A program made the translations under genes and the position numbers. From Nocardioides humi (GTDB lineage: Bacteria > Actinomycetota > Actinomycetes > Propionibacteriales > Nocardioidaceae): a stretch of DNA of 64,000 nucleotides. Within the stretch, counting starts at the first letter, position 1. Every line of letters begins with the position of its first letter. The DNA lies in assembly GCF_006494775.1 (NCBI RefSeq), contig NZ_CP041146.1, positions 2,356,001-2,420,000 on the forward strand, written 5' to 3'. Below, piece by piece: positions 1 to 64,000 of this stretch. Below the pieces are notes generated by a model, which saw only the letters and a list, made by a program, of their open reading frames with translations, was not told where the DNA came from and ran no database searches.

Positions 1-1446
1 AACGAGCAGCTGGAGGGCACCATGTTCGGCACGCTCCTGGTGGAGCGCGACGGACGGATCGTGCAGCGCTGGTGCGGCGACAGCGGTGCGCGCCGCGTCT
101 TCGACAACCTCGGCGTGGACGTCGGCGCCTCGCTGCTGGAGGAGGTCGTCGGCACCAACGCGCTCGGGACGGTGCTGGAGACCCGGACCAGCATCTCGGT
201 CAACGGCCGCGAGCACTTCGCCGTCGCGCTGCGGCGGTTCAGCTGCTACGGCCACCCGATCTTCCATCCCACGACCCGCAGGATCGAGGGTGTCCTCGAC
301 ATCACGGCGCTGATGGAGGAGGCCAGCCCGCTGCTGCCGCCGCTGGTGGCCCGCGCGGTCGCCGACATCGAGCAGCGCCTGCTGGACGGGAGCCGGGTGT
401 CGGAGAAGCAGCTGCTCGCCGCCTTCCAGGCCGCCGCGAGCCGGCGCCGGGCGGTAGTCGCGATCGGCCACGACCTGCTGATGTCCAACCAGGCCGCCGC
501 GGACCTGCTCGGGTCGACCGACGTCGCGCTGCTGCGGATGCTGGCCTCGGACGTGCGTGGCGAGGCGGCGATCGAGCTGACCCTCGAGTCCGGGCTGGAG
601 GTCCGGGTCGAGGCCGCCCGTGTGGGCGGGGCCCGCGGCGGCGCGCTGCTCCACGTCGAGCCGCGCCGCGAGGCCCGACGTACCCGTCCCGCCGCCGAGA
701 CGCCGGCCGCGCACGCTCCGCTGCTGGTCTCCGGCCCACCCGGCTCCGGCCGCTCGACCGAGGCCCGCCGCATCGCCGGCCCGCAGCCCGTCACCGTGCT
801 GAGCGCCGCGTCCGCGCTGCTCGACGGCTCCGAGGCCTGGGTCCGCAACTTCGCCGCGGTGGTGCGAGCGGGACAGGGCTCGGTGTGCATCGACGGCTTC
901 GACCTGCTCCCCGACGACCTCCTCGACCTCGTCGCCGCCCATCTGGCCGAGCGCCGGGCGCCGCGCCTGGTGCTGGTCAGCGGGCCCGTCGACGGCCTGG
1001 CCGGCCGGGCCGCGGCGCTCGCCGGCGAGTGCACCGAGCGGACCCTGCTGACCCCGCTCGCCGGCCGGCCCCACGAGATCCCCGAGCTGGTCCGGGCGAT
1101 GCTGGCCGACCTCGGCGCCGACCCGTCGCTCCACTTCACGCCGGGCGCGCTCGCCGCCCTGTCCTCGCAGCCCTGGCCCGGCAACCTGCGCGAGCTGCGC
1201 GCGGTCGTCGAGCACGTCGTACGCCGCCAGCGCACCGGCGCCGTCGTCGTCGACGCCCTCCCCGAGGCCTACCGGACCCAGGAGCCGTCGCGCCGCCTCG
1301 CCCCGATCGACCGCGCCGAGCGCACCGTCATCGTGGAGGCGCTGCGCGAGCACGACGGCAACAAGGTCAAGGCCGCCCAGGCGCTCGGGATCTCCCGCAC
1401 GACGCTGTACGCCAAGATGCGGGCGCTGCGGATCACGGTCTACTGA
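1..1446 (+). CDS. AcoR-like GAF / Fis-type transcriptional regulator (5' truncated by window)
   Basis: The reading frame is open from the first base, so the gene starts outside the window; 481 residues are visible. The N-terminal part resembles the GAF sensor of AcoR-type regulators (ending in a GVLDIT-like strand near base 300). A Walker A motif GPPGSGRST lies near bases 734-760. An AAA+ lid motif PWPGNLREL lies near 1170-1200. A Fis-type HTH (NKVKAAQALGISRTTLYAK) ends the protein near 1360-1420. The central ATPase is short and I see no GAFTGA loop, the element sigma-54 activators use to contact sigma-54. Actinobacteria generally lack sigma-54, so this is probably a conventional DNA-binding regulator that kept the enhancer-binding-protein architecture. 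Its target is probably the gene cluster to its left, outside the window. Confidence 0.8.
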   Translation, partial: NEQLEGTMFGTLLVERDGRIVQRWCGDSGARRVFDNLGVDVGASLLEEVVGTNALGTVLETRTSISVNGREHFAVALRRFSCYGHPIFHPTTRRIEGVLDITALMEEASPLLPPLVARAVADIEQRLLDGSRVSEKQLLAAFQAAASRRRAVVAIGHDLLMSNQAAADLLGSTDVALLRMLASDVRGEAAIELTLESGLEVRVEAARVGGARGGALLHVEPRREARRTRPAAETPAAHAPLLVSGPPGSGRSTEARRIAGPQPVTVLSAASALLDGSEAWVRNFAAVVRAGQGSVCIDGFDLLPDDLLDLVAAHLAERRAPRLVLVSGPVDGLAGRAAALAGECTERTLLTPLAGRPHEIPELVRAMLADLGADPSLHFTPGALAALSSQPWPGNLRELRAVVEHVVRRQRTGAVVVDALPEAYRTQEPSRRLAPIDRAERTVIVEALREHDGNKVKAAQALGISRTTLYAKMRALRITVY

Positions 1447-9517: not shown

Positions 9518-9581
9518 GGGACCACTATCGCCGCCGGCGAACTTTTTGTGAAGGGTGACGACAAATCCGGTGCCGCGGTCC

Positions 9582-10115
9582 TCACTCGTAGGACGGCGCC
9601 TCGATCTCGGCCATCGCGGGGTCCAGCGCGACGCCCCGGGCGAGCGAGGCCTCCGCCTCCGCGGTCTGCCCGAGGTGGAGCAGGGCGAAGCCGAGGCGCA
9701 TGTGGGCCGCGGCGAGGTCGGGGTCGATCTCGAGCACCCGGCGATAGGTCGCGATCGCCGCCGCGAGGTCCGTCCGCTCGTCGAGGATGGCGCGGTTGTA
9801 GAGCGCCGGGGCGTAGTCGGGATCGGCGGCCAGCGCCGCGTCGTACCTCGCCCGGGCCTCGTCCTCGTCACCGTCGGCCTGCGCGATCAACCCCAGGTTG
9901 TAGAGGGCGTACTGGTTGTCCGGGTCGAGGACCAGGACGTTCTCGAAGGTGCCCCGCGCGGCCGCGGTGGACCCCTCGCTGAGCTGGTCGAGGCCGGTCT
10001 GGAGCAGCGCGGACGCGCTCGACTCGGCTCCCGGCTCCTCGTCGCTGCAGCCGGAGAGCAGGGTGGCGGCCACGACGGCGGCGAGCGCCGCCAGCAGGTG
10101 CAGGCGTCGGGACAC
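9582..10115 (-). CDS. TPR-repeat lipoprotein
   Basis: A 177-residue lipoprotein. It has a signal peptide with lipobox LLSGC (Cys about residue 23), then four TPR-like helical hairpins ([53 protein letters not shown] and the last at the C-terminus). It is expected on the outer face of the membrane as a protein-protein scaffold. It lies 64 bp upstream of the collagen-like gene on the same strand, so the two could be co-transcribed. No enzymatic motif is seen. Confidence 0.85.
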
Positions 10116-10154
10116 GGCGCGGATCCTACGCGCCCCGGCGCTCTCCCCTCCCCC

Positions 10155-11090
10155 TCACCGACCGCGCAGGGTGACCGACGGCGCCACGCCGTACCTCTCC
10201 CGGTACGACGCGGCGAACCGCCCGAGGTGGGCGAACCCCCACCTGCTGGCGAGGTCGGCGACGCTGCCGTCGGTGGCGGCGAGCAGGTCGGCGTGCACCC
10301 GCTCGAGCCGGACGGCGAGGAGGTGCTGGGTCGGGGTGTGGCCGAGGTAGCGCTGGAAGCCCTGCTGGAGCCGGCGGATGCCGACGCCGGCCTCGCGGGC
10401 GAGCTCGGCGGCGGTCCAGTCGCGCGCCGGGTCGGCCTCGATCGCCTCGACGACCCGCGACACGATCCGCGGCCGGACCGTGCCGCACCCGGGCTCCTCG
10501 GGGAAGGAGGCGGCGACGAAGGCGGCGGTGAGGGTGGCCGCGAGACGCCGCGCCACGCGCTCGTCGCGGGCGAGGGCGGGGTTGCGCAGGGCCTCGGTGC
10601 CGATCGAGGCGAGCAGCCCGACCCAGGCGCGGCCGCCGTCGGTGCGCAGGTCCAGCTGGGCCGGGAGCCGGTCGGTGTGCAGGCCGACCAGGGCGGCCAC
10701 CTCCTCGACGAGATAGGCCCGGTCGACCCGCATCCCGACGATCGAGCAGTCGGCCGACCAGCGGGTCATCCGGGTCTCCTCGTTGGGCGGGCACACGGTG
10801 GCCTGCCCGTCGAGGGAGAGCACGTGGTGGGCGCCGATCTGCGCCTCGAGCACGCCGCTTCGGGGCACGTTCACCGCCCACGCACCGGGGTGGTCGGACT
10901 CGACGGAGACCTCCGAGCCCCAGCCGATCCGGGCCAGGCGCACCGGGCCGAGATCGACCGCACGCAGGTCGGCGGGACCGGTCGCACGACCCTTCACGAG
11001 CAGCCGGTGGGGGAAGTACGCGCGGGCGACGGAGTCGGAGAAGCCGCCCAGCTCGTCGGAGGACGCCGTGACCGTGCCGGTCGCGCTCAT
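10155..11090 (-). CDS. AraC-family regulator of the divergent flavin monooxygenase genes
   Basis: A 311-residue activator. An N-terminal cupin-like AraC-binding domain (about 1-190) is followed by two HTH motifs: WTAAELAREAGVGIRRLQQG near 220-240 and GSVADLASRWGFAHLGRFA near 270-290. It is transcribed away from the flavin reductase and hydroxylase genes, with a 202-bp promoter region between. The same arrangement of an AraC/XylS regulator beside two-component phenol or nitrophenol hydroxylases is known from Rhodococcus (PheR and NphR type). It probably activates these genes in response to the phenolic substrate. Confidence 0.85.
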   Translation of the reverse strand: MSATGTVTASSDELGGFSDSVARAYFPHRLLVKGRATGPADLRAVDLGPVRLARIGWGSEVSVESDHPGAWAVNVPRSGVLEAQIGAHHVLSLDGQATVCPPNEETRMTRWSADCSIVGMRVDRAYLVEEVAALVGLHTDRLPAQLDLRTDGGRAWVGLLASIGTEALRNPALARDERVARRLAATLTAAFVAASFPEEPGCGTVRPRIVSRVVEAIEADPARDWTAAELAREAGVGIRRLQQGFQRYLGHTPTQHLLAVRLERVHADLLAATDGSVADLASRWGFAHLGRFAASYRERYGVAPSVTLRGR

Positions 11091-39717: not shown

Positions 39718-42700
39718 TCAGCTCACGGGGATCAGGGTGACCACCAGATTCCTGCGGTAGTGGAACCGTCCGTTGCCGTAGGTGACCTTGTCGGTGCAGG
39801 TGACCAGCTGGACCCGCGCCTTGCCGGTCATCGTGAACAGCTTCTTGGGCAGCGGCTTGGAGCGCAGGTAGGTCCTGGACTTCTTGACCTTGTAGGTGCG
39901 CACCGTCCCGTTCTTGTCGGTCAGCTCCACGAGCTGGCCCTTCTTGGCCTTCCTCAGGTTGTAGAAGGCACCGGGCCGGTCGTGGTTGTCGGACACGTGG
40001 CCGACGATGACCGCCGTACCGATGACGTCGCCCAGCTGCGCCGAGGTCCGCAGCCAGCCGGTGAGGCTCCGGTTGCCCGGCACCTTCGCCTTCTTGCCCG
40101 CCAGCCCGATCGGCACCACCTTCGCGTTGATGCCGAGCTTGGCGAACCCGAGCTTGACCGGCTGCGCCTTGCGGGCGGCCGGGCCGGCCTTGTCGGTGCC
40201 CGTGAAGCCGGTGTCGATCACCCGGACCGGGTTGACGCCGCGGTGGACCAGGCTGGTCTCCTCCTCGAGCCCGCACGCGTGGGTCGCCGCCTTGTTGAGG
40301 TCGTCGGCCGTGGTGCTGGCGACCCAGGTGTAGTAGCCCGGGGCGCTGACCGTGATCGACGGCGTCGTCACCGTGCCGTTCACCGGCGTGAAGGACACCG
40401 TCCCGACCGCGGTCGCGGGCGTGCAGGTCGCCGCGCCGGGCTTGGCGAACGGCCCGTACAGCGTCGCCGATCCGGTCGACGTGCCACCGCTGCGGAAGCC
40501 GCTGACGGTGATCACGTCGGACAGCGCCACCCCGACCTTGGCCTCGGCCTTCGACGACCTCGTCGTCAGCGTCACGGTGGCCGGCAGCAGCACGAACCCG
40601 AAGTCCAGGCTGCGGTCGCTGTCGCCGTCCGCGATGAGGTCGCCGGACTCCGCGGTCCAGGTCGAGGAGTCCGCCTCCCGGTCACTGCCGGCGCCGGCCT
40701 GGGTCGGGCCGTACGGCGCCAGCGCCGTCTGCGTCGACGCGGCGTTGCGGTCGATGGCGACCGTGTAGCTCAGGCCGGGCGGGAGCACCGGCAGGCCCTC
40801 GAACACGTAGTGGCCGGCCGCGTCGGTGGTCACCGGGCCCACGACATCGCCGTAGACGTCGGTCACCGGGTTGCCGTCGGGTCCCGTCAGGACCAGGACG
40901 ACGCCGGGGATGCCGGGCTCGCCCGGGTCCTGGATGCCGTCACGGTCCGTGTCGACCCAGACCAGATCGCCGACGGACACCGCGGGGCGCACGAACCCGA
41001 AGTCGAGCGTCGGGTCGCGGTCGCCGTCGGTGGTGAGGTCACCGGACTCCGCCTCCCATGTCGAGGAGTCCGTCGCTCCGGTGCCCTGCCCGGTCTGGGT
41101 CGGGAGGTAGCCGGACAGGGCGGCGACGGTGGACGGGGCGTCCCGGTCGATCTTGACCGTGTAGTGCTGGCCCGCCGGCAGCACCGGCAGGTCGTCGAAG
41201 GAGTAGTTGCCGTCGGCGTCGGTGGTCACCGGGCCCACGACATCGCCATGGACGTCGGTCACCGGGTGGCCGTCGGGTCCCGTCAGGACCAGGACGACGC
41301 CGGGGATGCCGGGCTCGCCGGCGTCCTGGACGCCGTCACGGTCCGTGTCCGCCCACACCAGGTCGCCGACCGACACCTTCGCCGGCACGAAGCCGAAGTC
41401 GAGCGTCATGTCGCTGGCGGTCGGCGTGGTCAGCGGTCCGGACCGGGCGCTCCCGGTCGAGGAGTCGCTGGCCGGGTCGCCGCCCTGGCCCGACAGGGTC
41501 GGGACGTACGGCGCCAGCGCGGGCTGGGCGTTGTCGATCGTCACCGTGTACCGGTCGTCGGGGTCGGTGAGGACCGGCAGGTCGGCGAACACGTAGAAGC
41601 CGTTCGCGTCCGTGGTCGTCGTGCCGATCGTCGCGCCGCTCGGGTCGAGCAGGGTGAGCGTGACGCCCGGGATGCCGGGCTCGCCGGGGTCCTGGATGCC
41701 GTCGCCGTTCGAGTCGACCCACACGTAGTCGCCGACCGAGACCGGCTTCGGCATGAAGCCGAAGTCGAGGGTCAGGTCCCTGGCGCCGGCCGTGGTCAAC
41801 TCCGTGGAGTCTGCCGTCCACAGCGAGGAGTCGAGCGCGTCGTCCCCGCCCTGGTTGGCCTGGGTCGGGACGTACGGCGCCAGCGCGGTGACCGTCGACG
41901 GGTCGGCCTGGTCGATGGTGACCGTGTAGTGGTCGCCCGCGGGGAGCACCGGCAGGTTGTCGAACAGGTACCGGCCGTTCGCGTCCGTCGTGACCGGCCC
42001 GACCGGGTCGCCGTTGACGTCGGTCACCGGGTTGCCGTTCTTGTCGGTCAGCTTCAGCACCACCCCTCGAGACCGGACTCGCCGGGGTCCTGGATGCCGT
42101 TGCCGTCGCTGTCGATCCACACGAAGTCGCCGACCGACACCGACGCCGGCTTGAAGCCGAAGTCGATGGTGTGGTCGTTCTCGCCACGGTTGCCCGTGGT
42201 GATGGACGCCTCCGGGTAGCCGCCGACCAGGGTGCCGTCCGAGTCGAGCCGGTCCTGCTCCGGTCCGGTCCCCTGGTCCTCGTCGGTGAGTCCCACCCCG
42301 GCCAGCTTGCCGTTGCCGGTGTAGTCCTCCGGCTTGTCCAGCCGGATGACGTAGTCGGTGTTGAACCCGACGCCGTCGTTGATGGAGTCGAAGTAGTACT
42401 CACCGCGCGAGTTGGTCACCTTGGTGGCCACCAGGTTCCCGGCGGGGTCGTACAAGTTGACGGTGACGCCGGCGATCCCGTCCTCGCCGGGGTCCTGGAT
42501 GCCGTCGCCGTTCTCGTCGTTCCAGACCCGGTTGCCGATCTGGATCGGCGCGAACTCGCAGAGCACCTCCATGTCGGCCATGCCCTGGCCCTTGCCGAAG
42601 CCGTCGGCCCCGGTGAGGCGGTTGCCCCAGTTGTCGCCGTCGTGCAGCACCTCGTCGGGGTCGGGCCCGGAGCCGTCGCCGGCGCTGTCCAGGGCCCGTC

Positions 42701-44471
42701 CCGTGCCGCGGGAGATCGACGCGTAGCCCTGGGTCCAGAAGCCGGCCGGGTCCATGATCGTGGTCGCCACGCCGCGTTCGCCGCGGCTGAGCGCCAGGCC
42801 GCCGAGGGCGGGCTCGTTGTGGGCGGTGCGGTCGCCGGTGAAGTACTCGCCGGCCTCCTGGCCGGCCGGGACGGCCGCGATGCCGCAGGCGCCGTTCATG
42901 TCGAGCACGAACATGCCGCCCGACGTGGCCGTGGGACAGGCCTTGTTGATGTCGCCCTCGGCGTTGTAATTGACCAGGCCCAGACGCGTGCCGCCGGTGC
43001 CGGTGGTGTCGGCGAACCAGATCGAGTTCAGGCCGAGCTGCTGGTCGCCGGTGCGGTCGCGGAAGCCCAGGATCAGGTCGCCGTTGTTCTCCACGACGAT
43101 GTCGCTGAGCCAGGCCTGCGGGTCCGGGACCTGGCCGTTCTTGTTGGTGCAGGTGATGCCCTCGTCGTTCCACGGCCGGTAGGTGGTCATGTCGCGACCG
43201 TTGCAGCCGCCGCCGTTGCCGGCGCCGCTGCCCTGGCGCTTGGCGGTGAGCGGCTGGTCCATCACCGTGCCGATGGGCGCGTAGGTGTCGGCGTCGTACG
43301 ACAGCACAATCGCCCGGACGTCCGCGGCGCTCTGCGTCGACTCGGCCGAGCAGACGCCGCCGACGTAGAGGACGCCCTTGCGCTCGCCGAGCGCGCCGGG
43401 GCGCCAGTCCGAGGCGGCGGCGCAGCCCGGGTTCGCGGACAGGTCGACGACGTGCGTCGGGGCGCCCATGGTGGCCGCCGACGCGTCGTACACGTAGAGC
43501 TCGCGGGTGAACAGGTTGATCACCTGGAGGTCGTCGCCGTCCTCGCTGACGTCGAGGTCGCCGAGCGACTCCTTGCCGACCGCCGGCGCGAAGTTCCAGT
43601 CCAGGCGGCCGCCGGGGAGGGTGTCGTTGGTGTGGGCGCGGGTCCCCACGTTGGGAACGGTGCCCCACAGGGTCGCGGGGCCGCCGCTGGCGTCGGTCAC
43701 GTAGATCGCGCCGGCGCCGCCCGGGCCGTAGTCGCTGCCGCGCTTGGCGTAGGCGCCGGCGAAGACGCGCCGGTCCTGCCTGCGGTAGCCGATGCCGTAG
43801 AGGGCGCCGGTCTCCGATTTGGTGGAGAGCGTGGTCTTGGCGACGTCGGCGCCCTCGGCGCGGTACGGCGCGGTGACCAGGGTGTCGCCGGTGGCGTTGT
43901 TCGCCGCCCCGCCGCCGCTGTTGAACATCGGCGGCTGGCAGGCCGTGACGATGAGCGGGTTCGACTGGCAGTAGTCGCCGGAGTCCCAGAACGCCGTCGT
44001 CATCTGGACGGTCTGGTTGGCCCCGACGGTGATGAACTCCTCGTTCGGCGAGAGCCACTTGGCGGCCGGGGTGTCCGCCGTCCCCGTCTTCTCGCGGGCC
44101 GGCGCCGGCTGGAGGGTCGCGGGGTCCGGGTTGACCGCCACGATCCGGTAGGAGCCCGGAGCGCCCACGATCTCCACCAGGCCGTCGCCGTCGGTCGTGA
44201 GGTCCTGGGTGACGCCGGCCTCGTCGGTCACCCGGACCGTCACACCCGCCAGGCCCGGCTCGATGAACGGGTCGTCCCACCCGCCGTCGCCGTTGTAGTC
44301 CTGGACGACGCGCACCTTGATGGTGCCGTCGCCCGGGGCGGCCTGGGCCGGGGCAGCCACCTGCGTCCCGCCCAGCACGGCCAGACCCGAGGCGGCGACG
44401 GCCAGGGCCGTCAGCCGTCGGGCGGGGTACGTCGGCAGGGACGACCTCACCTGTTCGAACCAGCGCTTCAT
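39718..44471 (-). pseudogene. SdrD-repeat adhesin with C-terminal sortase domain, one-base frameshift
   Basis: One reading frame runs from ATG 44471 (AAGGAG 10 nt upstream) to 42066 and a second continues to 39718. The break is in the C-run at 42062-42065, where GLEG should pass into VVLKLTD. Restoring one base gives 1584 residues. Order: signal peptide (to about 40); a small CnaB-like domain (VRVVQDYNGDGGWDD); a large 500-residue domain with Cys residues; five SdrD-type B repeats with Ca-loop motifs such as DSNGDGIQDPGE (about 645-1230); a Cys-containing Ig-like module (ATLYGPF, THACGLEEETSLV); and a class E/F-type sortase. The sortase keeps His (IVGHVSD), Cys (LVTCTDK) and Arg (HYRRN). There is no LPXTG or C-terminal membrane anchor. 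Confidence 0.85.
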
Positions 44472-44567
44472 CAGCGTGTCACTCCTTGGTCGGGGCATGC
44501 CACAGACATGCGCGGGATCGTATTTACGGAGAAGGGTCGCCCGGGGCGCTTCAGGTAAAGGGATGAA

Positions 44568-44592
44568 CCGGGGTGAGCGGGGCTCACCCCGG
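44568..44592 (-). terminator. hairpin after LuxR regulator gene
   Basis: CCGGGGTGAG pairs with CTCACCCCGG around a 5-nt loop, 51 bp downstream of the LuxR-type regulator stop and upstream of the adhesin start. It separates the regulator transcript from the adhesin gene. Confidence 0.6.
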
Positions 44593-44642
44593 ACGACGGC
44601 GGGCCCGTCCGCTCGTCGGTACGGACCGGCCGCGGGGGCATC

Positions 44643-46220
44643 TCAGACCTCCGGCCAGTCGGGGACGTCGTAGGTCCATGCGGGCGGCATCAGGGCGACC
44701 TTCTGCAGGACCTCGCGACGGCTGGTGACGCCGAGCTTGGCGTAGAGACTGCGGATCTGGGTCTTGACCGTGTTGATCGAGACGCCGAGCCGGTCGGCGA
44801 TCTCGCTGCGGGCCGCGCCCTCGAGCAGCAGCCGGAAGACCGCGCGCTCGCGCGGCGACAGCGGCGCGGCGAGGGCCGGTCCCGGCATCCACACGCCGAC
44901 CGCGTCCCGGGCGACCTCCGCGAGATCGCCCGACAGCAGGTCGTTCGTCAGGGCGAAGGCGACCAGTGGTCGCGGCAGTGACGAGACGAAGGAGCGCCAG
45001 CCCTGGCGCCGGGCCGTGTCGAGGAGGACGTCCAGCAGGCGCCGGGCGCTCTCCTCGTCCCCGGTGGCGACGCAGGAGGCGGCCTCGAGGCCGCGGAGCC
45101 GGACCGACTCGCGCAGGGTGAGGTCGTGGGCCGCGCGGGCGACCCGCGCGGCGTAGCGCACCGTCTCGAACTCGCCGCTGACGTAGAGGACCGTCGCCTC
45201 CGCGACCGCGGACCACGGCGTGCGGGAGCTGCCCGGCTCGACCGCGACCCAGGCCTCGCGCACATTGCCCAGCGCGATGCTGAAGTCCGCGCGGGCAGCG
45301 CGCATGATCTCGCTGGCGATGCCCTCCCCCGCGATGCCGGCGGGCACCGCGGCCTCGGCCTGTCCCAGCAGGCGCAGGCCCTGCTCGTGCCGCTCGGTCA
45401 GCAGCAGGAACTGGGCATGAGCCCACAGGGCCAGCGGCCACAGGACGCCGTACGACGCGGGCGTGCGGCTCTGGACCGTCCGGCTGGCCTCGGGGAACGC
45501 CCGGTGGTCGATCAGCAGGATCATCCGGGTGAGCTGGGTCGCGTCGCTCGTCGCCGCGACGACCTGCCCCAGCTCCGCGACGAGCGCGTCGACCGCGGCG
45601 AGCGCCTCGGCGGCGTCGAGGAGCTCACCCGCCACGGCGCACACGAGGGCGAGATGCGCGGCCACGTGCGCGCGTCCGGCGGGCGAACCGTGCAGGCCCT
45701 CGGCGTCGTACGCCGCCTCGAGCAGGTTGCGCGCGTCGGCGATGTCCCCGCACAGCAGCGCGGTGATGCCGTACTGCAGCCGGGCGAAGGCGACGAGGGC
45801 CGGGTCCAGGTCGCCGTCCAGCGCCATCGCGCGCCGGGCGGCGACCGGGCGCGCCCCGTCCAGGAGCAGCCGGGCCTGGAGGAGCTGCCCGCTGGCGCGG
45901 TGCTGGACGCCGGAGAGGAGGTGGGCGAGCAGGATCTCGTCGTCGGGTCGCCGGCCGCGTCGTACCGCGCCCATCGCCTCGTCGACCAGGGTCCAGGCGT
46001 CGGTCCCGGTCACCAGGCCGCTGGCCACGGCGACGAACCGGAGGCCCGGGTGCTGGGCGATCGGCTCCGGGCCGAGTCTCACCAGCAGCGAGCGCAGCGC
46101 CGCGGGCTCGACCGTGTACCAGAGCTGCACCCAGCTCGACTCGAACTCCTCGACCGCCTGCCGCACCCGTCCCGCGGCCGCCAGCTCGCCGAGGGCGTCG
46201 ACGGACACGACCGTGGACAT
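44643..46220 (-). CDS. large LuxR-family transcriptional regulator
   Basis: A 525-residue regulator. The first 440 residues are a helical TPR/solenoid-like region without a P-loop. The C-terminal LuxR HTH is LSPRERAVFRLLLEGAARSE and VSINTVKTQIRSLYAKLGV (about 455-505). The architecture resembles MalT-like regulators that lost the ATPase. It lies between the two sortase-adhesin genes and downstream of a NarL-type response regulator on the same strand, so it most likely controls the adhesins. GAGGAG precedes the ATG at 46220. Confidence 0.8.
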   Translation of the reverse strand: MSTVVSVDALGELAAAGRVRQAVEEFESSWVQLWYTVEPAALRSLLVRLGPEPIAQHPGLRFVAVASGLVTGTDAWTLVDEAMGAVRRGRRPDDEILLAHLLSGVQHRASGQLLQARLLLDGARPVAARRAMALDGDLDPALVAFARLQYGITALLCGDIADARNLLEAAYDAEGLHGSPAGRAHVAAHLALVCAVAGELLDAAEALAAVDALVAELGQVVAATSDATQLTRMILLIDHRAFPEASRTVQSRTPASYGVLWPLALWAHAQFLLLTERHEQGLRLLGQAEAAVPAGIAGEGIASEIMRAARADFSIALGNVREAWVAVEPGSSRTPWSAVAEATVLYVSGEFETVRYAARVARAAHDLTLRESVRLRGLEAASCVATGDEESARRLLDVLLDTARRQGWRSFVSSLPRPLVAFALTNDLLSGDLAEVARDAVGVWMPGPALAAPLSPRERAVFRLLLEGAARSEIADRLGVSINTVKTQIRSLYAKLGVTSRREVLQKVALMPPAWTYDVPDWPEV

Positions 46221-46366
46221 GATGGGGGCTCCTCGCCGGACGGGACCCCGGGCCCGCGCCCGAGGAGCGCACTGCCGCGCCGGAGTGACGCGTGGAGCAT
46301 CGGCGGGGCCGGGTGGCCCGAGCCGCTCGCCGGCGGTCTTTTTGCCCCCCGTTCGGGGACGCCGCA

Positions 46367-47047
46367 TCACCCGCGGTCGACGTACCCGTCGTCGATGGCG
46401 ATCCGGCTCAGGTCGACCTTGGAGCGCACCGGGCGGCCGGCGACGGCGTACTTGGACTTGACCCGGGCGATGTAGGTCTTCGCCGTGTCCGGCTTGACGC
46501 CCAGCGCCTCGGCCACGGCGCCGAGGGTGAGCCCGGACGCGTAGAGGACCAGCGCCCGCTCCTCCTGGTCGCTGAGCTGGGGACGCTCGGCGTCGGCGGC
46601 GATGATCGCCGCCAGGTCGGGCGTCATCCACTCGCCCTGGCGGAGTACCGTCCACACCGCGTCGATCACGTCCTGCTCGGAGTCGCGCTTGCCGACGATG
46701 CCGGCCACCCCGGCCTTGATCACCGACCGGACCAGGCCGGGCGAGGCGAGGGCCGAGAGCACCAGGACCCGGAGCCCGGCGTCGACGAGCCGGCCGACGA
46801 CGTCCGGGTCGACGCTGGGGCCGCGGTCGACGCTGAGGTCGAGCACGAGCAGGTGGGGGCGGGCGCTGCGGGGTGCGCGCTGGACCCAGGCCAGGAACTC
46901 CGGCAGGGTGGCGCAGCTCGCCACCACGATCAGGCCGGACTCGCGGCCGAGGATCTCCTCGGTACGCCGACGCTGCAGGAGGTGATCCTCCACCAGCGCC
47001 ACCTGCCAGACGGTCTCGGACGACTCCCCCGCACCCACGACGGGCAT
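46367..47047 (-). CDS. NarL/LuxR-type response regulator
   Basis: A 226-residue two-component response regulator. The receiver has ALVEDHLLQRR (acidic pocket), LLVLDLSVDRG (phospho-acceptor Asp near residue 70), VLSA and KRDSE (the conserved Lys). The LuxR HTH near 155-205 has LTLGAVAEALGVKPDTAKTYIARVKSKY. Its likely sensor is the membrane kinase encoded at 49.9-52.2 kb on the other strand. It sits directly after the thioester-domain adhesin gene and before the large LuxR gene, 146 bp from it. Confidence 0.87.
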   Translation of the reverse strand: MPVVGAGESSETVWQVALVEDHLLQRRRTEEILGRESGLIVVASCATLPEFLAWVQRAPRSARPHLLVLDLSVDRGPSVDPDVVGRLVDAGLRVLVLSALASPGLVRSVIKAGVAGIVGKRDSEQDVIDAVWTVLRQGEWMTPDLAAIIAADAERPQLSDQEERALVLYASGLTLGAVAEALGVKPDTAKTYIARVKSKYAVAGRPVRSKVDLSRIAIDDGYVDRG

Positions 47048-47068
47048 TCTGGCAGGCCACGCCGTGGA

Positions 47069-47100
47069 CCCTCACGGGTGAGGGGCATCACCCGTGAGGG
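47069..47100 (-). terminator. hairpin after thioester-domain adhesin gene
   Basis: CCCTCACGGGTGA pairs perfectly with TCACCCGTGAGGG across a 6-nt loop, 8 bp beyond the adhesin stop codon. Confidence 0.75.
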
Positions 47101-47108
47101 TCGGGGCG

Positions 47109-49648
47109 TCAGCCGTCCAGCGGGGTCGCGGTGACCACCACGTTCTGCCGGTAGTGGAAGCCGCCGTTCGAGGTGCCGACCCGGCCGGCGCAGCTGATCA
47201 GGACGAGGCGGTGCTCGCCGGTGGTCGAGAAGAACCGCTGGGGCAGCCGCTTCGAGCGCGAGAACCGCTCGACCGAGGTGACCCGGTAGCGCAGCTGCCT
47301 GCTGCCCTCCCGGACCGTGACCACCTGGCCCGGCCGGATCCGGGACAGCCGCCAGAAGGCGCCGGGGCGGTCGCGCCGGTCGGAGACGTGTCCGGCGATG
47401 ACCGTCGTGCCGATCAGGTCACCGGCGGCCGCCGACCTGCTCAGCTGACCGGTGCGGGCCACCTGGCCGGGCACCTGCATGGTCCCCTTCCTGATCCCGA
47501 CCATCGTGGTGCGTGCGTTCACCCCGAGGGCCGGGATGATCACCCGACTGACCTTCCGGCGGCCGTTCACGTCGGGCCCGGCGGAGCGGTAGCCGGTGCT
47601 CACGACCGGCGGGCGGTACGACGGCTTGCGCACGAGCGTGGTCTCCGAGGCCAGTCCACACGCGTGCGTGGCCGCCGTGTTGTGGCTGTCGGCCGTCGTC
47701 GCGGCCACCCAGGTGTAGTAACCGGTCCGGGTCACCGGCACCGCCGGCGTACGGATCACGCCGTTGCCCGGGGTGAAGGGCACCGTCGCGACCGCGTGCG
47801 CGGGGGTGCAGGTGATCGCGGCGCGGGACGCGAACGGGCCGTACAGGGTCGCCGAGCCGGTCGCGCCGTGTCCCGGCACGAAGCCGGTGATGGTCACGAC
47901 GTCGTGGATCCTCTTGCCCGGCTTCACGGCGGTCGTGGAGGTCTCGGTCGTCAGCGACACGGTCGACGGGGTCGTGCCCGGGGGCTGGTCCTCGACCAGG
48001 GTCGTCTCGGCAGCGAGGCCGCACTCGTGGGTCGCCGCGTCATTGTCGGCGTCGGCGCTCACCGTGACCTGCCAGGTGTAGAGGCCGGGCCGGACGACCG
48101 TGATCGACGGGGTGGCGGACGTCCCGTTCTGCGGGGCGAAGGTGACGCTTCCGGCCTCGTTCGCGGCGACGCACACGGTGTCGTCGACGGTGGTGAGCGG
48201 ACCGTAGAGGGTGGCGGTCCCCTGGGCGGTGCCGCCGGGGACGAGGCCGGTGATCGTGACGACGTCGTGCAGGGCGGCGCCGACCCGGGCCGTGGCCGCG
48301 GAGGCCTGGGTGGTGACGGTCGGGCCGGCCCTGACGGTGACGGTCTGCGCCGCGTCGTCGATGTCCTTGTGCTCGGCGACGACGACCGCCGAGCCGGTCT
48401 CGACCAGCTCCTCGAAGGCCACCAGCTGCTGTCCGGCGTACCCCGCCGGGACGGTGAAGTGGACCTCGACGGTCCCGTCCGCCTGGGTCGGCGTGAAGGT
48501 CGCCGAGCCGGTGATGCCGGTCGCCGAGCCGTCGGACCTGCGCATCAGCTCGCCGGTGATCGTGTAGGTCGTGCCCGGCACCAGATTCGCGTAGGCCACC
48601 GTGTCGGTCACGGAGCCGCCGGTCGAGGGCAGCACGTGGTCGCCGTCGGCGGCGTCGACCAGGGTCGTCCCGATCGCCGGAGCCGCGGCCGCCGCCCAGG
48701 CGACGGCGGCCTGATCGGTGACGGTGGCCGTGCTCGGCGCCACCAGGATGAGCGACTGCGCGTGGTCGCCGGCGGTCGCGGTGCCGCCGGGCTGGGTGGG
48801 CACCGAGATGATCTTGCCGGTCGCGTTCGAGCCCGTCGCCGTGACGGTGACGGTGGCCGACCCGGCGGCCGTGGTCCCGCGCAGGTCGAGGTACAGCTGC
48901 TGGCCGTCGACGACCGTGGACGCGTCGATCGGCGTACCGCCGGCGTCGGTCAGGGTGAGCGCCGGAGCGACCGAGACACTGACGCTCGGCTGGTCGGTGC
49001 CGACCGTGAACGGCCCGACGAGCGAGTCGGCCACTTGCGCCGCGGCGGGCCCGCCGATGGTCGCGGTGGTGCTCAGGTCCGCGGGGTCAGGCCGCCACTG
49101 GCGTTGGCGCCGTTGACGAGGTACCAGTAGGCGTCCTCGGAGTCGTCGCTCGCCCAGGCCCAGCTGGCGTCGTACCCGACGTCGGTGTAGCGCCAGATCG
49201 CGTACTGGGTGGCCTCGATCGCGTCGTTGAGCGCGATGCCCGGCACCCCGGACGCGGTGGCGAAGTCGGCGAGGCTCAGCGCCGGATAGCTGTGCGCGAG
49301 GACCCACAGCACCCTCGCCTGGACGGCGGGATCGGTGAAGTGGTTGCTGCCGAGGAAGTCGGACGCGGTGCCGACGCCGGCGGCGATGTTCGGCTTGGCC
49401 GTGACGTCGTGCTCGATGCAGTAGGCCCAGTAGTCGGGCGTGCCCGGGTTGCCCGGGTCGGCCGGCGTCTGCTCGAAGACGCCGTGGATGCCGCTGCCGG
49501 GATAGCCCTGCGACTTCGCGCCGACGTAGACGGTGTCGCCGGCGCCCGGCTCCGCGGACGCTCCCGGCGCCGACCACGGCGTCAGCACGGCGACGACCGC
49601 CAGCGCCAGCGCGGCGACGCCCGTGCGGCGCCCGTTGCTCATTCTCAT
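47109..49648 (-). pseudogene. thioester-domain / VaFE adhesin with C-terminal sortase domain, one-base frameshift
   Basis: Starts at ATG 49648 (GGAG 8 nt upstream). The frame breaks in a G/C run at 49083-49086, where SGGLTP should continue with ADLSTT. One added base gives 846 residues. Order: signal peptide (to about 34); a thioester domain with the Cys of YCIEHD and the Gln of ATQYAIWRYTD that form the internal thioester; a linker; a T-Q ester-bond (VaFE) domain with DTVAYANLVPG, VAFEELVET and HKDIDDAAQTV; two copies of a Cys-containing Ig-like module (ATLYGP, THECGLAAETTLV); and a sortase domain with His (IAGHVSD), Cys (LISCAGR) and Arg (HYRQN). Thioester domains bind host or matrix amines covalently in Gram-positive adhesins. 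Confidence 0.85.
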
Positions 49649-49865
49649 CGATCTGTCTCCGCCTGTTCGTGGACCCGATGGGATCCCGCGTCGCCGGTCG
49701 TCGGCCGACCGGTCGGAGCACCGTGCCCGATCCGGGCGGCGCGAGCGCGGCTCCACGGCGCGGCGCCCGCCGAATGTCCCCGTCCGGGGGACGTGTCCTC
49801 ACCCCCGGAGCGGGAAGGCACCGCCTCCGGTCACGCCCGGATCCGTCGTACGGCAGGCTGGGCCG

Positions 49866-52184
49866 GTGCAGATCGTCCGAGCCCGCCGGCACCTCGGGGA
49901 CCTGGCACGCGACCTGGTCCGCCGCGCCGCCCCCGTCCGGCCCGCGGTCGACGGCTGGGCGACGCGGACCCTGACCGGCGCGATGGCGCGGGCCTTCCTA
50001 CTCGCCACCGCCGCGTGGCAGCTGGTCATGCTGGCCGCCGTGGTGGCATCGCCGGGACCGGTGCGCGACCTGGTCCCGCTGCTCCTCGCCCACGCCGCCA
50101 CACTGGGGGCGATGCTCGCGGCCCGGGCGGGCCGCCTCCCCGCATGGGTCCCGGTCGTCGCGGTCTACGTGCTGTTCGTCGGCGGCTGGTCAGCGGCGGA
50201 CTCGATGGTCGACCCGCTGCTGTTCGCGTCCTGCTGGATGATGAACCTCGGCGGCGCCACGCCGGCCTTCGTGCTCCGCGGGCGGCCGGCCCTCGTGCTC
50301 CCCGCGCTGGCCTCGGTGACGGTCCCCGCGGCCATGCTGCTCCTGCGGCCGGATCTGCCGCCGACGCTGCCGATCGCCGTCTTCATCACGCAGTGGTCGA
50401 TCGTGCTGGCGACCCGGGTCGGGTTGACCTACCTCTTCGACTTCGCCGCCGAGGCCGACGCCGAGGCGTCCGCGGCGCTCCGTGACCGGGCCGCCGTCGC
50501 CGCCCAGGAGGCCGCGGGCCGGGCCGCGGCCGAGGACGCCCGGGTCCTGCACGACACCGTGATCAACACCCTCGCCGCCATCGCGAGCGGCGGCGGCGCG
50601 GTCCGCGACACGGAGGCGGTGCGCCAGCGCTGTGCCCGCGACATCGCGACCGTAGCGGCCCTGCAGGCCGGCACCGCGCCGGCGGACGACGACACCGGGC
50701 TCCGCGCGGCGTCGTACGACTCCCGGGTCCGGGTGCGCCACCTCGGGCTGGACGACGCGCGGCTGGCCGGGGCCGAGGCGCGTCTCGACCCCGCGCGGCT
50801 GCGGGCCCTGCGGCGCGCGACGACCGAGCTGGTCCAGAACGCCGCCAAGCACGCCGGCGTCGACGAGGTCAGGGTCCGTGCCGAGGAACGCGCGGGCGAG
50901 CTCGTGGTGACGGTCGAGGACGACGGAGCCGGGTTCGACGGCCGGACCGGGTTCACCGGCGGGCTGGCCACGTCCGTGCTCGACCGGGCCCGCGAGGCCG
51001 AGATCGAGGTCGGCCTCGACACCGCTCCCGGCGCCGGGACCCGGGTGACGCTCACCGTGCACCGGTCCTCGGGGGCCGGGCCGCGGCGGCGCGAGCGGCG
51101 CGGCGGCATCGCCGACGTCGTCCGCGTCCTGCGCCGCCGCGCCTGTCTCCTGTACGGCGCCGGCGTCTCCGCCGTCGGCTTCGTCCTGGCGGTCGGCAAC
51201 CACCCGGGCGAGCCGACGCCGGAGTACCTCATGGCGACCATCGCCGCGCTCGGCGCGGCCCTCGCCTGGTGGTGCACCCGCAACCGGCGCGCCCTGCCCG
51301 CCTGGGCGGCCCTGGTGCTCGCCGCCGCCGCACCCGCGGCCTTCGTGCTCTCCGCCGCCGCCGTCGACTACGGCCGCGACGACCCCGTGCTCTGGCAGGC
51401 GATCGGCGCCACCGGGATCCTCATCGTCCTCGCCGAGCTGGGTCCGCGGCCGGCCACGGTCGTGTGGGCCGGCCTCGGGTACGCCGTCGTGGTGCTGGTC
51501 GTGGCCGCCGACGTCGGCCGGTCCTCGCCGGCGGCCGCGACGATCGTGCTGATGGCCGGCGCCGCCGCCCTGGGGCTGGTCGCCGCGTGGCGGCGGTTCC
51601 AGCGCACCATCGGTGCGATCGGCGTCCGCGCCGCCGCCGACGAGCGCGCCGCGTGGGCCGCCCGCACCCAGCTGGCCGAGCGCGAGGCCGCCGACCGGTC
51701 CCGGGGGCGATGGCGCGCGGCCGGGCTGAACCGCTCGCTCTCGCTGCTGGAGGCCGCGCGCGACGGCGCCGACCCGGACGACCCGGCGCTGCGGTCACGA
51801 TGCGCCGAGGAGGAGGCGTACCTGCGCCAGCTCACCCTGCTCCACCCGGACCTGGTGCACATGGGCCAGTGGTTCGCCCGGGCGCTGAACGAGGCCCACG
51901 ACCAGGGCGTCCGGCTCGTCGTCCGCGCCGGCGGCGAGGACCTGCCCGCCCAGGTCGCGGCCGACCTCGGCGACCTCCTGCTCACGACCGTGGCGGGCAC
52001 GCCCACCGGTCAGGACCTCACCATCACGCTGTTCCCCAGCTCGGCCGGCGCGCGGATGACCCTCGTCGGCGCCCACCCGCACCTCGCGGACGGCATCCGG
52101 GCGGCTCGCGGTCCGCTCGCCGCGGCGACCCGGGTGACGTCGTTGGCCGACCAGGACGTCGCGGAGATCGTCGTCGGGGCCTGA
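49866..52184 (+). CDS. membrane sensor histidine kinase with duplicated membrane half
   Basis: A 772-residue protein. The first half has about six transmembrane segments, then a NarL-type kinase core: phospho-acceptor His in VLHDTVINTLAAIAS near residue 232, N box ELVQNAAKHAG near residue 322, and G box DDGAGFDG near residue 354. The second half repeats a membrane block (about residues 425-580) followed by a helical cytoplasmic region without recognisable His or ATP-binding boxes, so it looks like a degenerate kinase copy. It is divergent from the thioester adhesin, 217 bp apart, and probably signals to the nearby NarL-type regulator. GTG 49866 start. Confidence 0.78.
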   Translation: MQIVRARRHLGDLARDLVRRAAPVRPAVDGWATRTLTGAMARAFLLATAAWQLVMLAAVVASPGPVRDLVPLLLAHAATLGAMLAARAGRLPAWVPVVAVYVLFVGGWSAADSMVDPLLFASCWMMNLGGATPAFVLRGRPALVLPALASVTVPAAMLLLRPDLPPTLPIAVFITQWSIVLATRVGLTYLFDFAAEADAEASAALRDRAAVAAQEAAGRAAAEDARVLHDTVINTLAAIASGGGAVRDTEAVRQRCARDIATVAALQAGTAPADDDTGLRAASYDSRVRVRHLGLDDARLAGAEARLDPARLRALRRATTELVQNAAKHAGVDEVRVRAEERAGELVVTVEDDGAGFDGRTGFTGGLATSVLDRAREAEIEVGLDTAPGAGTRVTLTVHRSSGAGPRRRERRGGIADVVRVLRRRACLLYGAGVSAVGFVLAVGNHPGEPTPEYLMATIAALGAALAWWCTRNRRALPAWAALVLAAAAPAAFVLSAAAVDYGRDDPVLWQAIGATGILIVLAELGPRPATVVWAGLGYAVVVLVVAADVGRSSPAAATIVLMAGAAALGLVAAWRRFQRTIGAIGVRAAADERAAWAARTQLAEREAADRSRGRWRAAGLNRSLSLLEAARDGADPDDPALRSRCAEEEAYLRQLTLLHPDLVHMGQWFARALNEAHDQGVRLVVRAGGEDLPAQVAADLGDLLLTTVAGTPTGQDLTITLFPSSAGARMTLVGAHPHLADGIRAARGPLAAATRVTSLADQDVAEIVVGA

Positions 52185-63656: not shown

Positions 63657-64000
63657 GGACGCGACGGGCACCGGTACGGCGTACCAGACGGTGCGGTGGC
63701 TCCAGTGCCCCGGGCCGAGCCGCTTGCCGGAGCAGACGACGATCACGAGCTGCTCGGGCCCCCACCACCGGAAGGCCTTCTTCCGGGGAACGCGCGCGGC
63801 GGCGTACCTCTTGCGCCGGGTGACCTGGTAGCAGGCGGCCTCGGTCCCCGCCTTGTTGCCGAGCACGACCCGGCCGCCCTTCCGCAGCGAGCGCAGCAGT
63901 GCGTTGCCGAGCGCGGTGCCGTCGGGCCAGGTGTGGGCGGTCATGATCACGGTGCCCTCCCCCTCGCCGGGGCGCGCCTGCGGATCCCGGCCCAGGAGCC
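63657..64000 (-). CDS. class E/F-type sortase (5' part cut by window end)
   Basis: The frame is open to the right edge of the window, so the N-terminus is missing. The visible 110 residues contain the sortase core: catalytic His in IMTAHTWPDG, Cys in IVVCSGKRL and Arg in SHRTVWYAVPV. The upstream residues GRDPQARPGEGEG fit the strand before the His. The sequence differs from the two fused sortases in this window and resembles stand-alone class F enzymes. Its relationship to the adhesin-sortase locus 11 kb away is unknown. Confidence 0.75.

Follow-up and report, generated by a model that had tools for sequence, protein, structure and literature searches.

How can an adhesin be attached to the cell when it ends in a sortase and not in a sorting signal? 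TED and SdrD-type adhesins are anchored by a separate sortase via a C-terminal sorting signal. In the window (the whole stretch of 64,000 nucleotides of Nocardioides humi that was analysed), two genes, here called adhesins A and B, combine an adhesin and a sortase in one protein. The original prediction for this locus proposed that such proteins could be self-attaching or self-polymerising, or that the sortase captures other proteins. The analysis described below led us to estimate at slightly better than even (about 0.52) the probability that A and B are self-sorting adhesins, in which the linker ahead of the fused sortase carries the motif on which this enzyme acts.

Organization of the locus

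The features of the locus are listed in Table 1. As anticipated, a response regulator, a LuxR-type regulator and a divergent histidine kinase accompany the two adhesins, with no unrelated gene between them. The start of the kinase was taken from the gene model and its membrane part was judged by eye. The LuxR-type regulator matched its relative in a syntenic locus (L063) with an E value of 1e-250. The lipoprotein-like protein adjoining A gave no family match in Pfam/NCBIfam-type profile searches. In adhesin B, the thioester domain was recognized by PF08341 with 57.6 bits and its YCIE fits the [YFL]C motif described for thioester domains in the cited part of PMC4450167, the thioester itself being putative.

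Table 1 Features of the adhesin-sortase locus (positions in the window)
Feature	Position	Strand	Remarks
Lipoprotein-like protein adjoining A, 261 aa	38823..39608	-	Also beside the A relative in L063
Adhesin A, C-terminal frame	39718..42120	-	SdrD B-like repeats, last Ig-like domain, linker, sortase
A, sortase domain	39742..40140	-	PF04203
A, sortase Cys in TCTDK	39787-39801	-	
A, sortase His in GHVSD	39988-40002	-	
A, linker motif V-I-D-T-G-F	40204..40221	-	Alignment-conserved columns
A, SdrD B-like repeats of the C-terminal frame	about 40584-42120	-	
Adhesin A, N-terminal frame	42054..44498	-	Signal peptide, head region, first SdrD B-like repeats
A, signal peptide	about 44328-44471	-	By eye
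LuxR-type (GerE HTH) regulator, about 525 aa	44643..46220	-	Profile match; relative in syntenic L063
NarL/UhpA-type response regulator, 226 aa	46367..47047	-	Profile matches; relative in L062
Adhesin B, C-terminal frame, coding part	47109..49085	-	Open frame extends to 49892
B, sortase domain	47121..47537	-	PF04203, AlphaFold
B, sortase Cys in SCAGR	47181-47195	-	
B, sortase His in GHVSD	47379-47393	-	
B, linker motif V-V-S-T-G-Y	47589..47606	-	Gly = model residue 130, alignment-invariant
B, T-Q ester domain	48333-48680	-	
Adhesin B, N-terminal frame	49073..49756	-	Signal peptide (Met near 49648) and thioester domain
B, thioester domain with YCIEH and TQYAIW	49103-49429	-	PF08341, TIGR03934
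Membrane histidine kinase, divergent from B	49869..52184	+	HATPase_c

A secreted sortase of 221 aa that is not fused to an adhesin (L159) is encoded about 11.5 kb away from the fused locus and extends across the window edge (63657-64000 and on to about 64320, minus strand). It lies just downstream of a second response regulator that resembles the one in Table 1.

The locus had been read as encoding two large exported proteins. Signal peptides (by eye) and sortase ends were found for both, but each gene is split over two frames in this assembly, so that the signal-peptide part and the sortase part stand in different frames, and the codon-position GC switches frame within both genes. The N-terminal frame of A stops inside the repeat region; the C-terminal frame of B comprises the T-Q ester domain, two Ig-like domains, the linker and the sortase. 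The fusions are considered real because intact relatives exist and because one protein, P0066 (844 aa), equals both frames of B: its residues 1-187 are identical to the N-terminal frame and residues 187-844 to the C-terminal one. Intact relatives of A are L063 (open frame of 1642 aa) and P0001 (1591 aa), while no identical intact copy of A was found in the genome and protein searches. Since intact relatives exist, the frame breaks are no feature of the family.

The genome holds four adhesin-sortase fusions in all. The third one (L008) also seemed split by eye, and the fourth (L007; P0014, 1283 aa) is open throughout. When 18 stretches of 20 kb from the same genome (L012-L029, 360 kb) were screened with a simple gene model, 37 candidate frame switches were obtained; several of the 11 sites inspected were ambiguous. 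This assembly may thus contain many broken frames.

A sortase domain at the C-terminus

Both C-termini proved to be sortase domains, as claimed from the sequence: PF04203 matched A with 53.6 bits and B with 48.0 bits (cut-off 26.6), and a structure search with an AlphaFold model of the end of B returned sortases as all of its best 50 matches, class C enzymes ranking first. A PDB search with the sequence of the last 150 residues of B gave no match at E 0.1, and the search with a profile yielded five weak sortase matches. The best NCBIfam sortase model for A and B was that of class F (NF033748), with 79.0 and 73.4 bits, respectively. Its curated cut-off of 166 bits was not reached, and the domains are thus termed class F-like and not filed as members of the class. 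The N-terminal membrane anchor shortly before the core, a class F trait, is absent, the signal peptide being hundreds of residues away. The comparison was extended to 114 non-redundant fusions, which were obtained by thinning on shared 3-mers from 225 sequences in which 250 aa or more of the frame precede the core. A single marginal hydrophobic stretch was detected in the last 450 aa of these 114 proteins, and 0-17 residues follow the sortase domain.

A His, a Cys and an Arg had been claimed for both proteins. The His and Cys are present in A and B and are kept in 113 of the 114 fusions. A candidate for the catalytic Arg of strand 8 is likewise found in A (HYRRN) and B (HYRQN), where it comes after a Tyr like R329 after Y328 in SrtE1, but it is not general: the position holds Arg in 55 and Thr in 43 fusions, including Thr in both other fusions of this genome, so that Arg does not seem to characterize the family. 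In four pairs the sortase core had a rough dN/dS of 0.30-0.45, and for the degenerate L075 the value was 0.79. This fusion sortase (9525-10424, genome G029) has neither His nor Cys (GQVAARG, LVTKAG) and retains a VTTG linker. The N. humi genome also encodes a membrane sortase-like protein in which the catalytic Cys is missing (LVTAEGQ; L009 6559-7218, minus strand), and which adjoins a gene resembling, by eye, the phosphate-binding protein PstS.

A conserved motif in the linker

According to the original prediction, the adhesins lack LPXTG and a tail anchor. This holds for the C-terminus, where the sortase domain was found instead of LPxTG, helix and basic tail, but an LPxTG-like pentapeptide lies just before the core, namely VIDTG in A and VVSTG in B. 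The corresponding sequences are KIETG in L007 and EVSTG in L008. When the 114 fusions were aligned, the linker between the last Ig-like domain and the core displayed the consensus P-x-[IV]-x-T-G. The Gly is present in all 114 sequences and the Pro in 87; the third position is Ile in 70, Val in 43 and Phe in one (L099, the sole motif without I/V). The residue before the Gly (P1) is Thr in 85, Gly in 18, Ser in 8 and Ala in 3. Conservation is far weaker in the residues that follow, and the distance from the motif Gly to the sortase core is at most 35 residues in 108 of the 114.

A search that did not depend on the alignment gave a similar picture. The pattern x[IV]x[TSGA]G was found in 113/114 fusions, against a mean of 30.2 and a maximum of 46 in 500 shuffles. 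Among 51 ORFs taken as stand-alone sortases, one of which (L154) is a fusion, it occurred in 12 (shuffles: mean 9.5, maximum 18). As judged from these sequences, the motif is at background level before the stand-alone class F sortases tested.

P1 was found to covary with an Asn near the C-terminus, which is present in 94 of the 96 fusions with Thr, Ser or Ala at P1 and in 1 of the 18 with Gly. This covariation comes mostly from one clade, and the single Thermoleophilia-type sequence with Gly retains the Asn. Mutual information was dropped as proof of coupling, its strongest pairs partly tracking the split between two lineages.

Structural model of the end of adhesin B

The last 290 residues of B were modelled with AlphaFold from 79 sequences. 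The one model obtained had a pLDDT of 95.1 and a pTM of 0.90, with values of 92 for the block containing the motif and 71 for the next block of the linker. DSSP assigned a strand or bridge to residues 126-127. In the alignment with S. coelicolor SrtE1 (5cuw), model residues 126..290 correspond to 168..339, these being the first and last aligned residues only, and VVSTG begins with residue 126. In SrtE1, a linker tripeptide (residues 168-170) occupies the enzyme's own active site and is set off from the core by 22 unseen residues, as described in the cited part of PMC5148588; the title of 5cuw reads 'with tripeptide in the active site'. Because its start aligns with this tripeptide, the motif is read as docking: in the model it seems to lie in the sortase groove, in the same chain direction as the SrtE1 tripeptide.

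Junctions and relatives without a sortase

In order to judge the specificity of the motif, 151 junctions between Ig-like domains, taken from 56 of the 114 proteins, served as an internal control for 111 terminal junctions. P.[IV].[TSGA]G was found in none of the 151 internal junctions and in 87 of the 111 terminal ones, whereas the looser [IV]x[TSGA]G occurred in 17 and 110, respectively. The pattern P.[IVL].T stands at the start of 142 of the 151 internal Ig-like domains. The motif resembles the start of a next Ig-like domain, and part of it would therefore be inherited; by sequence it seems to have grown from this common domain start, the Gly alone being specific to the sortase junction.

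This resemblance, together with the strand or bridge at residues 126-127, fits another explanation, namely that the motif is a remnant of an Ig-like first strand that packs the linker, and that the sortase is an ordinary, perhaps secreted, transpeptidase or wall-binding domain. We regard this as quite improbable in view of the restriction of the Gly form to the sortase junction, the retention of His and Cys in 113/114 fusions and the alignment of the start of the motif with the active-site tripeptide of SrtE1.

The sortase core was present in 172 of the 202 homologues returned. The remaining 30 lack it, and by eye 23 of them terminate with a membrane helix followed by a basic tail. These tails are preceded by xIx[TS]G in six cases (TIKTG, QIISG, GIESG, AIDSG, TINTG and DISTG), by an LPxTG/LAxTG-like sequence in 14 and by no clear motif in three. 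In P0196 and in three members of the LPxTG/LAxTG-like group, two or more of which are from Enterococcus, the tail is far from the last detected Ig-like domain. The other seven have no membrane tail, some being seemingly incomplete. Of six further sortase-less relatives, four carry tails with LPFTG, LPATG, LPFTG and IVRTG. The other two, L192 and L196, continue into another domain, L192 with PTIMTGR ahead of it. In two more loci (L080 and L081), relatives end with the Ig-like domain and carry no sortase and no sorting signal, and no separate sortase was found in those two loci.

Distribution and origin of the fusions

An Ig-like domain and a sortase in one frame were detected in at least 11 of 37 genomes of the genus, including that of N. 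humi. When named genomes were scanned with a single peptide pattern, 37 loci were revealed, all of them labelled as Nocardioides, Pimelobacter, Nocardioidaceae or Propionibacteriales, and protein searches added fusions named as Thermoleophilia, Gaiellaceae, Solirubrobacteraceae and Conexibacter. An even sampling of the phylum gave module-spanning matches in at least 6/396 genomes, again including N. humi, with two candidates scored per genome. In the phage search, three unannotated records matched, and the matches were confined to the stalk part. One genome (G014) contains six fusions, and its syntenic locus (L062, L063) retains relatives of A, B, the LuxR-type regulator, the response regulator and the kinase.

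A tree was calculated in which 62 fusions (61 of the set and L154) were placed together with 51 other sortases. The fused cores lie amid class F sequences of the stand-alone kind and group by type, with one clade (100/100) for the Nocardioides-type fusions and a second (100/93) for those of the Thermoleophilia type. The fusion label requires two changes on the best tree and one is also compatible, so that one or two origins of the fusion are possible on the basis of this phylogeny.

Proposed mechanism

For a self-sorting adhesin, the following course can be proposed. A signal peptide would export a protein made of an adhesive/stalk region, the last Ig-like domain, x-[IV]-x-T-G and the class F-like sortase, the latter standing where a classical sorting signal has its membrane helix and basic tail. 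The motif would go into the groove of the sortase of its own chain, probably in cis rather than in trans. The Cys would attack after the motif Thr and the adhesin would be held on the enzyme as a thioester, which an amine, most likely that of a wall precursor, would resolve. The remaining sortase piece would start with the motif Gly. Since a sortase in the same chain needs no membrane-retained substrate, this course would explain the absent anchor.

The self-attaching option of the original prediction is thus favoured by the conserved linker motif, the sorting signals on sortase-less relatives and the docking in the model, from which cleavage and anchoring are what we infer. It is about an even chance that the fusions are a single-turnover self-sorting family of two Actinomycetota classes, with the wall-anchoring enzyme and its substrate in one chain and the sortase as a disposable C-terminal sorting signal. 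Several observations count against self-sorting: P3 of the motif is I/V, where known sorting signals have Pro or Ala; P1 is Gly in 18/114; L075 keeps VTTG without His and Cys, and in L192 the domain that follows PTIMTGR is no sortase; the Arg position varies; and the motif is partly shared with the start of Ig-like domains.

The sortase of one molecule could also cut the motif of another, thereby chaining adhesins. The presence of more than one fusion in a genome (four in N. humi, six in G014) would suit sorting or polymerisation in trans, as would L075, whose motif and dead sortase occur in a genome with another fusion. The short linker and the docking within a single chain fit action in cis, and we consider the trans reaction very improbable. 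As regards the self-polymerising system originally envisaged, nothing found here points to it.

Regulators and candidate partner proteins

The original prediction had raised the question of whether the two-component genes travel with the arrangement. A sortase C-terminal to an adhesin does recur, within the genus and in Thermoleophilia, but the two-component genes follow it in one clade only. Relatives of the response regulator and kinase of the window were found in 7 of the 37 named loci, from 5 genomes, and these regulators are therefore outside the general architecture. The 37 loci (about 20 kb each) were also compared with 20 random 20-kb stretches of the N. humi genome. A GerE-type HTH occurred in 17/37 loci and 7/20 stretches, with no clear enrichment, and regulation was dismissed as a part of the system. 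A large LAL-type LuxR regulator was present in 7/37 loci and 0/20 stretches.

A general conserved LPxTG partner was rejected as well, LPATG genes being found near 4 of the 37 loci with the pattern used. In the N. humi genome, an LPATG sequence was noted by eye next to the L008 fusion, and the L007 fusion has a small LPDTG protein upstream. Such neighbours of some fusions hint at the capture of other proteins, the last option of the original prediction. In three loci (L062, 7097-8443; L106; L109), the neighbour of a B relative resembles collagen by eye and bears an LPATG sorting signal. No such protein was seen between these genes in the window.

These neighbours bear on the main rival of self-sorting, in which the motif is a lid, that is, an uncut pseudo-substrate over the active site, and the sortase serves other proteins while the adhesin positions the enzyme. 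Such a lid would agree with the linker tripeptide in the active site of SrtE1, for which a class C-like lid function is discussed in the cited part of PMC5148588, with the class C sortases at the top of the structural matches, and with the LPATG and LPDTG genes just mentioned. It is nevertheless unlikely in our opinion: real sorting signals, some with xIx[TS]G, follow the stalk in sortase-less relatives; an uncut lid needs no near-invariant Thr-Gly pair; no LPxTG neighbour was detected with the pattern used at 33/37 loci; and the membrane anchor expected for an enzyme acting on membrane-held substrates is absent near the fused sortase.

Comparison with known systems

Among the matches listed for open-licence PMC full text, no description of sortases fused to adhesins was found. 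The databases already contain such proteins, with names such as 'VaFE repeat-containing surface-anchored protein' or 'class F sortase'. What class F sortases do physiologically is described as unknown in the cited part of PMC13251363. In a survey of fibrillar adhesins, no more than about half of the training set had a known anchor, and its authors suspect that there are anchors yet to be recognized (PMC9210967, cited part). If true, a sortase and its substrate site in one chain would provide a substrate for a class F-like group and a new anchor. Self-sorting would further mean protein attachment without a membrane-held intermediate and a self-contained ligation module, and this reading names the bond and the residue by which cleavage can be tested.

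The fused domains resemble the class F sortases (NF033748; SrtF1-4 of Actinoplanes missouriensis) in their best NCBIfam match and their position in the tree. In contrast to these, they sit C-terminal to an adhesin, have no anchor near the core and score below the cut-off. The linker motif is near-invariant in the fusions and at background level in the stand-alone class F sortases tested. The class F proteins of A. missouriensis have 184-273 aa, and their quadruple mutant showed no phenotypic change according to the cited part of PMC13251363.

With the LPxTG signals and the LAxTG signals of class E, the fusions share a pentapeptide with a final T-G after the last stalk domain, but they have I/V at P3 and then a sortase instead of a helix and basic tail. 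With SrtE1 (5cuw) they would share a segment of the linker before the core in the active site, which in the model was aligned with the start of the B motif. The SrtE1 tripeptide, AQA, has no T-G, and neither SrtE2 nor other class E enzymes conserve it, as far as the cited part of PMC5148588 describes them. SrtE1 also differs in having a membrane helix and in not being an adhesin. The adhesive parts are those of TED adhesins and SdrD-type stalks, B having thioester and T-Q ester domains and A having SdrD B-like repeats. The parts are thus already known, and what is new is the merger of adhesin and sortase and the motif in the linker that joins them.
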